DNA of 39,787 bases, from assembly GCA_028286825.1 (NCBI GenBank), contig JAQBQV010000022.1:1-39787 (forward strand), read 5' to 3'. Shown here one piece after another: positions 19,525-35,256 of the stretch (position 1 is the stretch's first letter; each line of letters opens with the position of its first letter). The translations under genes and the position numbers were made by a program. This stretch comes from Parcubacteria group bacterium. GTDB lineage: Bacteria > Patescibacteriota > Minisyncoccia > Phycocordibacterales > Phycocordibacteraceae. The notes below the pieces were generated by a model, which had not been told where the DNA came from, ran no database searches, and saw only the letters and a list, made by a program, of their open reading frames with translations.

Positions 19525-19597
19525 GCGCCCGTAGCTCAGCTGGTAGAGCAGCTCCCTTTTAAGGAGAAGGTCGCAGGATCGTTCCCTGCCGGGCGCA
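19525..19597 (+). tRNA. tRNA-Lys(TTT), CCA not encoded
   Basis: Acceptor GCGCCCG/CGGGCGC, anticodon loop CTTTTAA, T-arm GCAGGATCGTTCCCTGC. Confidence 0.93.
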
Positions 19598-19643
19598 CAT
19601 AAAGACAAAACCTGCCGCAGGGCAGGTTTTGTCTTTATGTGCG
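19594..19643. terminator. Perfect palindrome at tRNA-Lys 3' end (terminator-like)
   Basis: CGCACATAAAGACAAAACCTGCC gcag GGCAGGTTTTGTCTTTATGTGCG, starting inside the acceptor strand. Confidence 0.75.
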
Positions 19644-19684
19644 AGCCGTAGCGATGTATGGCTAGCAAGTCACACCCGCGAGGC

Positions 19685-19733
19685 GGGGTCGCGGAAATTT
19701 AGTTGTGACGACAACTAAATTATCTGTGACCCC
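19685..19733 (+). repeat. tRNA-trailer element, family A core
   Basis: GGGGTCgcgga AATTTAGTTGT gacg ACAACTAAATT atctgtGACCCC; homologous copies at 23185-23235 (opposite strand), 29702-29762, 35201-35238. Confidence 0.7.
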
Positions 19734-21620: not shown

Positions 21621-21646
21621 TCGCCCGAAAGGGCGAGTTTCTTTTT
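21621..21646 (+). terminator. Rho-independent terminator of rpsT
   Basis: TCGCCCgaaaGGGCGAGTTTCTTTTT. Confidence 0.8.
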
Positions 21647-21647
21647 A

Positions 21648-21804
21648 TGTGCTTCCGGACGGAAACGAAACTTACAGTTTCAGTAGACCTTGTGGATTTT
21701 CTCTTCGCACAAAAATGCTTGAGAAATGCGCACAAGGTTTTCGATTCCGTCACGCACGCCTCCCAGGCGTGCTCGAAAGCACCATCCTCGCCCTGGCTCG
21801 TCTG
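21648..21804 (-). repeat. tRNA-trailer element, family B (tRNA-Arg-CCG)
   Basis: TGTGCTTCCGGACGGAAACGAA (21648-21669) repeats tRNA 3' end 21803-21824 (21/22); inverted tail TTCGATTCCGTC-[hairpin 21752-21773]-CGAAAGCAC; core stem ACCTTGTG/CACAAGGT. Confidence 0.75.
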
Positions 21805-21876
21805 TGCTTCCGGACGGAATCGAACCGTCATCACCTCCTTCGGAGGGAGGCATTGTATCCATTCAACTACGGAAGC
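21805..21876 (-). tRNA. tRNA-Arg(CCG)
   Basis: GCTTCCG/CGGAAGC acceptor, CCTCC-CTCCGAA-GGAGG anticodon arm, GACGG TTCGATT CCGTC. Confidence 0.92.
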
Positions 21877-23044: not shown

Positions 23045-23049
23045 AGACC

Positions 23050-23374
23050 AGGACCGCGAGTACGCTTATCGATCCTTACAGGGCAGTATGCCCTACTGAT
23101 TTTCTGTTCGCTCCGCTCCATAAAATGCTGATAAGGATTTCGATTCCTGGCTGCACGTCTCCCAAGACGTGCGTGAGAGCACTTGTGGTCACGGATAGTT
23201 CAGTTGTCGTCGCAACTGAACTCCCTCGACCACCACAAGAGTACTCCCAATCTCTAATCGCTTCGCTCAAGAGATCGAGGTCGCCCGGCTCGCGGTTTTG
23301 CGTGCTCGCAAAACATCGCTGCGTCCAGCACATCAACACAAACACCTGCCGCAGGGCAGGTGTTTGTGTTGATG
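23050..23374 (-). repeat. Composite tRNA-trailer element (families A and B) after tRNA-Arg-GCG
   Basis: 24-bp perfect palindrome 23327-23378; family A hairpin 23185-23235; inverted tail TTCGATTCCTGG(23139-23150)-[hairpin]-TGAGAGCAC(23174-23182); family B core beyond. Confidence 0.75.
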
Positions 23375-23446
23375 TGCTCTCACCAGGAATCGAACCTGGA
23401 TTTCTCCCTTCGCAGGGGAGTGTCCTATCCGTTGAACGATGAGAGC
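23375..23446 (-). tRNA. tRNA-Arg(GCG)
   Basis: GCTCTCA/TGAGAGC acceptor; anticodon arm CTCCC-CTGCGAA-GGGAG; CCAGG TTCGATT CCTGG. Confidence 0.9.
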
Positions 23447-25944: not shown

Positions 25945-25969
25945 TAGGGGTATTCTATCAAAATTCGCG

Positions 25970-26120
25970 GCGGAAGGGGTGGTTCGATCCTTACAGGATC
26001 AGTACACCTTGCGGATGATTTGCTCCAAACAGTCGCAAATCACGCTCGCAAGGTCTTCGAATCTCACGAGCCCTGCTACCAGCAGGGCTACCTTCCGCAA
26101 AATTGCGGGGACTGATTTTG
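25970..26120 (-). repeat. tRNA-trailer element, family B (tRNA-Ser)
   Basis: GCGGAAGGGGTG at 25970-25981 repeats the tRNA 3' end 26120-26131; inverted tail interrupted by an AGCCCTGCT/AGCAGGGCT hairpin; core ACCTTGCG/CGCAAGGT. Confidence 0.72.
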
Positions 26121-26207
26121 CGGAAGGGGTGAGATTCGAACTCACGGTCCCCGTAAAGAGACTCCTGTTTTCAAGACAGGTGCATTAGACCACTCTGCCA
26201 CCCTTCC
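26121..26207 (-). tRNA. tRNA-Ser(TGA)
   Basis: GGAAGGG/CCCTTCC acceptor, anticodon loop TTGAAAA, long variable arm, GTGAG TTCGAAT CTCAC. Confidence 0.92.
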
Positions 26208-29641: not shown

Positions 29642-29762
29642 AAAGAAAAGACTGCCCCTGGCAGTCTTTTCTTTTGGTGAGCCGGAAGCAGCTCGGCTGC
29701 TGAGGCGGGGTCGCGCAAAAATTTAGTAAAATCTTATGGGTGATCAAAAAATCTCTGTGACC
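29637..29762 (+). repeat. tRNA-trailer element, family A (tRNA-Arg-TCT)
   Basis: Palindrome CACCAAAAGAAAAGACTGCC cct GGCAGTCTTTTCTTTTGGTG, then GAGCCGGAAGC...GAGGCGGGGTCGCGC...CTGTGACC. Confidence 0.65.
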
Positions 29763-29877: not shown

Positions 29878-29944
29878 CAATGGTCTCGACGGCATGGCTT
29901 GGAGCCATGGAATAAATAACGGCATATGGTACGTTTAGATAAAT

Positions 29945-29985
29945 GCACCCTTAGCTTAGATGGCAGAGGCCGAGGGCCATTTACG
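29945..29985 (+). pseudogene. tRNA-Val-like 5' fragment
   Basis: GCACCCTTAGCTTAGATGGCAGAGGC...CATTTAC resembles the 5' half of tRNA-Val at 30022; no T-arm. Confidence 0.5.
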
Positions 29986-30021
29986 GTTCTGTCGGAGAGA
30001 TTGCAGAATTGAGATAGATAG

Positions 30022-32165: not shown

Positions 32166-32247
32166 GCCCAGGTGGTGTAATTGGTAAACACGTATGCTTG
32201 AGGTGCATATGTCGCAAGACGTGGAGGTTCAAGTCCTCTCCTGGGCA
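32166..32247 (+). tRNA. tRNA-Leu(GAG)
   Basis: GCCCAGG/CCTGGGC acceptor, TATGC-TTGAGGT-GCATA anticodon arm. Confidence 0.9.
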
Positions 32248-32295
32248 CACACAAACACAAAACCCGCATTTATGCGGGTTTTGTGTTTGTGTGTG
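32245..32295. terminator. Long palindrome after tRNA-Leu(GAG)
   Basis: CACACACAAACACAAAACCCGCAT tt ATGCGGGTTTTGTGTTTGTGTGTG. Confidence 0.75.
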
Positions 32296-35105: not shown

Positions 35106-35256
35106 CAAAAATAACGAAACGGATGCGCAAGCATTCGAGGATTATATTTTTGGTGCGGCTACCGGGAATCGAAGGCCGGAGGCGCGACGGCGCCGAGGCG
35201 GGGTCGAGCAAATTTCTAGCAAGAAATTATGCGTGACCGATCATGGTAGCCGCCCC
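35106..35256 (+). repeat. tRNA-trailer element, family A (tRNA-His)
   Basis: Inverted tail 35145-35173 (TATTTTTGGTGCGGCTACCGGGAATCGAA), family A hairpin 35201-35238, direct tail copy GGTAGCCGCCCC 35245-35256. Confidence 0.78.

Follow-up and report, generated by a model that had tools for sequence, protein, structure and literature searches.

tRNA genes are classic landing sites, and to our knowledge any single integrase uses just one or a few of them. Mycobacteriophage Ms6 needs an attP core that matches the tRNA tail, and it can be re-aimed by a change in that core (PMC1762012). The window analysed here, a stretch of 39,787 nucleotides that forms contig 6 of a 675-kb, 24-contig genome and carries nine tRNA genes, contains short units that resemble integrative elements with a T-loop attB of the Ms6 kind: the target runs from the T-loop to the 3' end of the gene, direct tail repeats stand on both sides, and the tRNA is restored. 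However, the units differ from Ms6-type elements in measuring only about 150 nt, in having no integrase gene, in occupying many different tRNAs per genome, and in holding an inverted copy of the tail that is split by a hairpin. Since no integrase accompanies them, they are not members of the tRNA-targeted integrative elements as tested here.

Three other systems invite comparison. Like REP/BIME-RAYT systems and MITE-like repeats, the units are small, non-coding, hairpin-rich and dispersed, with nested and tandem copies. However, their core is not arranged as in REP, no cores flank the RAYT-type genes, a copy-rich genome has no such genes at all, and the arms of the units adapt to the target. 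The folded sites of integrons (attC) and of CTX phage share with the units variable hairpins, conserved bulges and strict Watson-Crick pairing, and here, too, the site might be a strand in its folded state. The attC sites of integrons have the form GTTRRRY...RYYYAAC (GTT/AAC), whereas the unit cores end, by inspection, in ACC/GGT or GGTC/GACC; no cassette array was seen, and our enzyme search covered tyrosine recombinases in general. Finally, template switching at quasipalindromes is an established process that creates and mends perfect hairpins (PMC8794818), and it resembles the case here in that it yields perfect inverted repeats and multi-base compensatory changes. That, however, is a mutational process and not an element, and it would explain the matched arm only.

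Anatomy of the units

The original prediction held that the tails of three tRNAs in the window (Arg-CCG, Arg-GCG and Ser-TGA, all encoded on the minus strand) are copied nearby in antisense, and that each copy is interrupted by a hairpin at the boundary between acceptor and T-stem. The three antisense copies are present, at positions that proved correct to within 1-2 bases, and the interruption was found in every one of them. The 12-nt T part is in each case a perfect copy of the T-loop and T-stem of its own tRNA; by chance, any one 12-mer would turn up 0.005 times in the window. This description covered one arm of the units, and omitted the second direct tail copy (D2), the conserved core formed by hairpins 2 and 3, and the type-B units of the window. 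The antisense tail copies are one arm of a larger, hairpin-rich, non-coding DNA repeat (Table 1).

Read along the tRNA strand, a type-A unit (about 150 nt, non-coding) consists of D1, a turn, the anti-acceptor, hairpin 1, the anti-T, hairpin 2, hairpin 3 and D2, where D1 is the tail of the intact tRNA and D2 repeats that tail directly beyond the core. Hairpin 2 follows the pattern RACCTT...AAGGT and hairpin 3 the pattern TACTG-nnnC-TGTAA-Gnnn. Type-B units have a different core, GAGGCGGGGTCG...GTGACC, and likewise carry an anti-tail of their own tRNA. The unit at tRNA-Arg-GCG is a composite of B and A, and its hairpin 2 is degraded. When the 3' flanks of the 39 tRNA genes of this genome were inspected by eye, about 15 were found to bear a unit, type-A at five (two of them degraded) and type-B at about 10.

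Table 1. Positions of unit parts in the window (parts of one unit in order along the tRNA strand)
Unit	Feature	Position	Strand	Remark
1 (Arg-CCG)	D1	21805-21824	-	tail of intact tRNA, T-loop to discriminator base
1 (Arg-CCG)	turn	21784-21804	-	D1 to anti-acceptor
1 (Arg-CCG)	anti-acceptor	21774-21783	-	complement of acceptor 3' strand, A73 and C
1 (Arg-CCG)	hairpin 1	21752-21773	-	GGG triloop; acceptor/T-stem boundary
1 (Arg-CCG)	anti-T	21740-21751	-	exact reverse complement of own T-loop and T-stem 3' strand
1 (Arg-CCG)	hairpin 2	21687-21738	-	conserved type-A core (ACCTTGTG..CACAAGGT)
1 (Arg-CCG)	hairpin 3	21667-21686	-	TACTG-nnnC-TGTAA-Gnnn
1 (Arg-CCG)	D2	21641-21666	-	second direct tail copy
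2 (Arg-GCG)	D1	23375-23394	-	tail of intact tRNA
2 (Arg-GCG)	long palindromic trailer	23328-23374	-	starts at tRNA 3' end
2 (Arg-GCG)	type-B hairpin	23187-23234	-	precedes type-A part
2 (Arg-GCG)	anti-acceptor	23174-23184	-	
2 (Arg-GCG)	hairpin 1	23151-23173	-	
2 (Arg-GCG)	anti-T	23139-23150	-	
2 (Arg-GCG)	degraded hairpin 2 and hairpin 3	23071-23138	-	
2 (Arg-GCG)	D2	23048-23070	-	with extra subclass hairpin AAGCGTACTCGCGG
3 (Ser-TGA)	D1	26121-26140	-	tail of intact tRNA
3 (Ser-TGA)	turn	26098-26120	-	one-base overlap with anti-acceptor end
3 (Ser-TGA)	anti-acceptor	26091-26098	-	
3 (Ser-TGA)	hairpin 1	26068-26090	-	
3 (Ser-TGA)	anti-T	26056-26067	-	exact
3 (Ser-TGA)	hairpin 2	26006-26054	-	ACCTTGCG..CGCAAGGT
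3 (Ser-TGA)	hairpin 3	25986-26005	-	
3 (Ser-TGA)	D2	25966-25985	-	CCG kept where relative has encoded CCA
tRNA-His	type-B unit	35157-35256	+	anti-tail without inserted hairpin 35157-35173; core 35195-35238; D2 35239-35256
tRNA-Lys-TTT	trailer and type-B core	19593-19731	+	palindromic trailer 19593-19643; core 19680-19731
tRNA-Arg-TCT	type-B core	29702-29762	+	behind the tRNA

An intact tRNA is predicted upstream of the insert, which is flanked by the D1 and D2 tail repeats (43 units). In type-B units, D2 is entered exactly at T-loop base R57, after TTC, which places the junction between C56 and R57; from R57 on, D2 of the 38 tRNA-linked type-B units matches D1 at 7.2 of 12 bases, compared with 5.2 when shuffled. 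The encoded CCA is kept in D2 of 10 of the 43 units and in D1 of 2, and D2 is therefore the older tail. No simple terminal repeats were seen. The tail duplication occurs at tRNAs, and in a 'bare' form of type-A, which has no anti-tail and consists of GGTGAG or GGTTGAG, hairpin 1 and the core, the duplication is absent or short. Some bare copies split a type-B unit, others a second, partial tRNA.

We considered whether the arm consists simply of the 5' strands of a second tRNA copy that has shrunk, and rejected this: the complementarity of the arm extends to the T-loop and the discriminator base, as only a true inverted copy would have it. A second partial tRNA does house a few units (L108, L107). 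At L121, a second element upstream of hairpin 3 is a hybrid in which a type-B hairpin is joined to a type-A hairpin 3, linking the two core types. Elsewhere in the window, the long near-perfect palindromes at tRNA-Leu-GAG (32245-32295) and tRNA-Lys-TTT begin inside the tRNA's own 3' end and are longer than an ordinary terminator needs, and a fragment at about 29944-29990, between tRNA-Leu-CAG and tRNA-Val, is like the 5' half of the nearby tRNA-Val-TAC (30022).

Distribution among genomes and sites

Patterns for the A and B cores were scored against reversed patterns, which gave almost nothing. They matched 26 and 27 of 59 relatives, and a scan of 85,000 species genomes yielded at least 118 stretches; among the matches listed, the titled records are Parcubacteria/Paceibacteria, Patescibacteria or uncultured-bacterium bins. 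The type-A pattern occurred in 6 genomes of an even sample of 380 Patescibacteria, all 6 from the order of the window genome itself, and to judge from these sequences the element family appears to be order-specific within Patescibacteria. A phage origin was rejected, as the sole match on a viral contig (L159) is a chance match in coding sequence and has no hairpin. An Rfam search brought only tRNA to the cut-off, and no known structured-RNA family (T-box, intron or riboswitch) fits. The open-access literature on repeats and mobile elements of Patescibacteria yielded no description of these units, and an earlier report elsewhere is possible.

We collected 173 distinct type-A units of one architecture; for 82 of them there is a tRNA on the same strand, and the unit follows it at 20-300 nt. 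Units stand behind nearly every kind of tRNA, and they are also found at tmRNA, at the 3' end of rplK in several families, inside type-B units and in intergenic DNA. The rplK end (presumably rplK, a name given by eye from the sequence) is a recurrent type-A site (L078, L087, L093, L121, L176, L188 and L216). A further shared repeat (CGAATGTGCCAAATTGGCACGAAATCACCCCGTAAAAA...) lies downstream of the tRNA at L003 (Val-GAC) and L033 (Tyr-GTA), and a piece related to it follows Glu-CTC in L038 and L039.

Presence at a given gene is sporadic. At tRNA-Ser-TGA, examined in 39 congeners, the type-A unit occurs in the genome of the window alone, and one other genome has a B-like unit. The gene is empty in the closest relative (G023, 95% identical tRNA). 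Most congeners have the same neighbour upstream of it, a gene that we take, from its sequence by eye, to be RuvX/YqgF-like. At this tRNA in another genome (L288, G020), two direct tail copies are separated by about 40 nt that contain no core, possibly a remnant or an excision scar.

Match of the arm to its tRNA, and pairing within the hairpins

The original prediction was that the flanks follow the identity of the neighbouring tRNA, and they do so well beyond the window. Across the 82 tRNA-linked type-A units, the 12 nt left of the core agree with the reverse complement of the unit's own T arm at 9.9 of 12 bases, compared with 7.5 when partners are shuffled and with 7.9 in the highest of 2000 shuffles. 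At the five variable T-stem bases, 3.9 match the own tRNA and 2.4 a shuffled one. The anti-acceptor agrees at 7-8 of 8 bases in 53 of the 82 units, compared with about 6 expected from other tRNAs. For type-B (38 units), the best anti-T score is 10.3 compared with 8.4 when shuffled (maximum 8.6).

The hairpins were also predicted to differ in sequence while keeping their pairing. This is the case for hairpin 1 of the three units, and covariation, scored from pair counts on anchored hairpins, extends it: among 15 distinct triloop sequences the score is 1.19 compared with 0.28 for shuffled sequences, none of 500 shuffles reaches it, and all 6 pairs change on both sides somewhere. Only sequences with at least 5 of 6 bases paired entered this set of 15, and their level of pairing is therefore in part a product of that choice. 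Hairpin 3 pairs in 97.6% of cells (170 units) compared with 42% when shuffled, and its covariation score among 41 distinct sequences is 0.88 compared with 0.17 (0 of 500 shuffles). Neither of the outcomes named beforehand as contrary to the prediction, a lack of covariation or an anti-tail that fails to follow its tRNA, appeared.

From these features it had been concluded that the trailer is selected, as RNA, to pair with the 3' half of the tRNA. This conclusion is supported in part: the covarying structure and the agreement of the anti-tail with its own tRNA stand, but a feature of tRNA trailers as such is not supported. On that reading, an element of the precursor tRNA would gate folding or 3' processing through base pairing of the trailer with the 3' half of the tRNA (or with D2), and selection on RNA pairing would match the arms; we hold this to be unlikely. 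At the positions where D1 and D2 differ, the anti-tail agrees with D1 at 24 of 26, and complementarity to the tRNA itself is thus what persists where D2 has drifted, as this reading would have it. The precursor RNA also folds far better than shuffled sequences (z -6.9 and -9.1), in a form where the anti-tail is bound to D1 and the cloverleaf is completed by D2; however, the drift of D2 argues against regular use of that fold. Also against an RNA element are the units found at tmRNA, at the ends of rplK, between genes and within other units, the near-complete absence of type-A units from the tRNA-Ser-TGA orthologues of the genus, the presence of a second direct tail copy, and the lack of an Rfam family. 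Moreover, the pairing is nearly pure Watson-Crick: G-T pairs make up 0.6% in hairpin 3 and 2.6% in hairpin 2, compared with 5.9% in the tRNA acceptor stems of the same genomes, and mismatches between anti-T and tRNA show no excess of G-T (7 of 48). The rarity of G-T pairs and the absence of a wobble excess would favour pairing or copying at the DNA level over selection on RNA pairing.

Probable movement of the units and its possible mechanism

Several units bear signs of movement. Tandem units occur in L103 and L078, and type-A is nested inside type-B in L112 and L114. Identical cores lie at several sites of G045, in keeping with MITE-like repeats (short, non-coding, dispersed near-identical copies). 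L226 (Glu) and L238 (Gln) have an identical 49-nt hairpin 2 and an anti-tail that in each fits its own tRNA, and identical or nearly identical hairpins 2 beside different, well-fitting anti-tails recur in L140/L141, L079/L134 and L095/L143, suggesting that the core persists and the arm is written anew or fitted again. Old, vertically inherited units, whose cores were kept alike by gene conversion and whose arms were kept matched by palindrome correction, would account for identical cores beside different arms within and between genomes with neither transposition nor a transposase. We consider this improbable, given that units are sporadic at orthologous tRNAs, that tandem and nested copies and the many non-tRNA sites need movement, and that homologous recombination would have only short tracts, of about 50 nt, to work on.

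The explanation to which we would give about an even chance is that these sites are copies of a dispersed, non-coding, T-loop-inserted three-hairpin DNA element, and that the anti-tail is kept matched by templating at the DNA level. The right end of the element abuts T-loop base R57 of the tRNA gene, which puts the insertion between C56 and R57. The gene's original tail would be left on the far side as D2, and D1, the tail now used by the tRNA, would have come with the insertion or been made during it, so that the tRNA stays intact. The antisense copy is the element's left arm, and its complementarity to D1 would be maintained by copying at insertion, by later template-switch correction of the D1/anti-tail palindrome, or by both. 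The match as such could come from selection to pair with the tRNA, from repeated correction of that palindrome, or from joint arrival of D1 and arm. The place of hairpin 1 inside the copied arm is unexplained by a single simple copying step; during template switching it may be left as an unpaired side loop. Some copies without a clear target duplication speak against the proposed insertion. A bolder version, which we hold to be unlikely, is a self-retargeting mobile DNA element that moves with host enzymes only. With every insertion it would write direct and inverted copies of the new target into its arm, divided in two by a fixed hairpin, and its folded strand would thereby always resemble the tRNA it occupies.

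A more specific form of the DNA element is a folded single-strand recombination site, in which the duplex of anti-tail and D2 mimics a tRNA tail and a host Xer or other recombinase swaps it with the real one. An exchange at C56/R57 would give D1 from the element, followed by the anti-tail, the core and a target-derived D2 that keeps its CCA. The arm from anti-acceptor to D2 does fold as single-stranded DNA (z = -7.0), and there is one Xer in every copy-rich genome. However, the target tails differ with no common recombinase site apparent, and no dif-like motif has been demonstrated; we regard this form as rather doubtful.

No mobilising enzyme was found to accompany the copies in the richest complete genomes (G044, G045 and G048). 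Each of the three has a single tyrosine recombinase, and a dedicated integrase is lacking there, as the units are non-coding and no extra tyrosine recombinase is present. IS110 (DEDD recombinase) occurs in only 4 of 59 genomes and is absent from the copy-richest, and Y1 transposase is absent from G044, which has 9 copies. Around 20 Y1/RAYT loci there was neither a type-A core nor a clear type-B one. As mobilisers, RAYT, IS110, extra tyrosine integrases, reverse transcriptase and Cas1 were rejected for want of co-distribution. The size of the duplicated tail (17-18 nt), read as a target-site duplication, would suit a SINE-like retroelement or an insertion of the Cas1/casposase type. However, the three richest genomes have no reverse transcriptase, and Cas1-family integrases were found in 0 of 18 genomes checked, which makes either process very improbable. 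The units would move by a single-strand or recombinase route, possibly with one of the host's own enzymes.

Y1 transposase genes are common in the clade; divergent Y1/RAYT-like genes of about 220-260 aa, apparently single copies, occur at 1-7 per genome in G003, G005, G013, G015, G028, G048 and others. Between two type-B units with tmRNA tails lies a 329-aa open reading frame (L155:3252-4238), possibly cargo; searches of Pfam and NCBIfam gave no match for it, and a sister case was looked for in vain.

In the present case, nearly every tRNA is used by a single family of tiny elements whose arms always fit the host tRNA. Its sites can disturb tRNA annotation in Patescibacteria, and they caution that strong covariation beside a tRNA need not mean a functional RNA. 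If the arm is mended by template switching, the units would offer a natural experiment on that process at dozens of loci. If the arm is instead rewritten at each move, this would be a novel means by which a mobile element switches targets.
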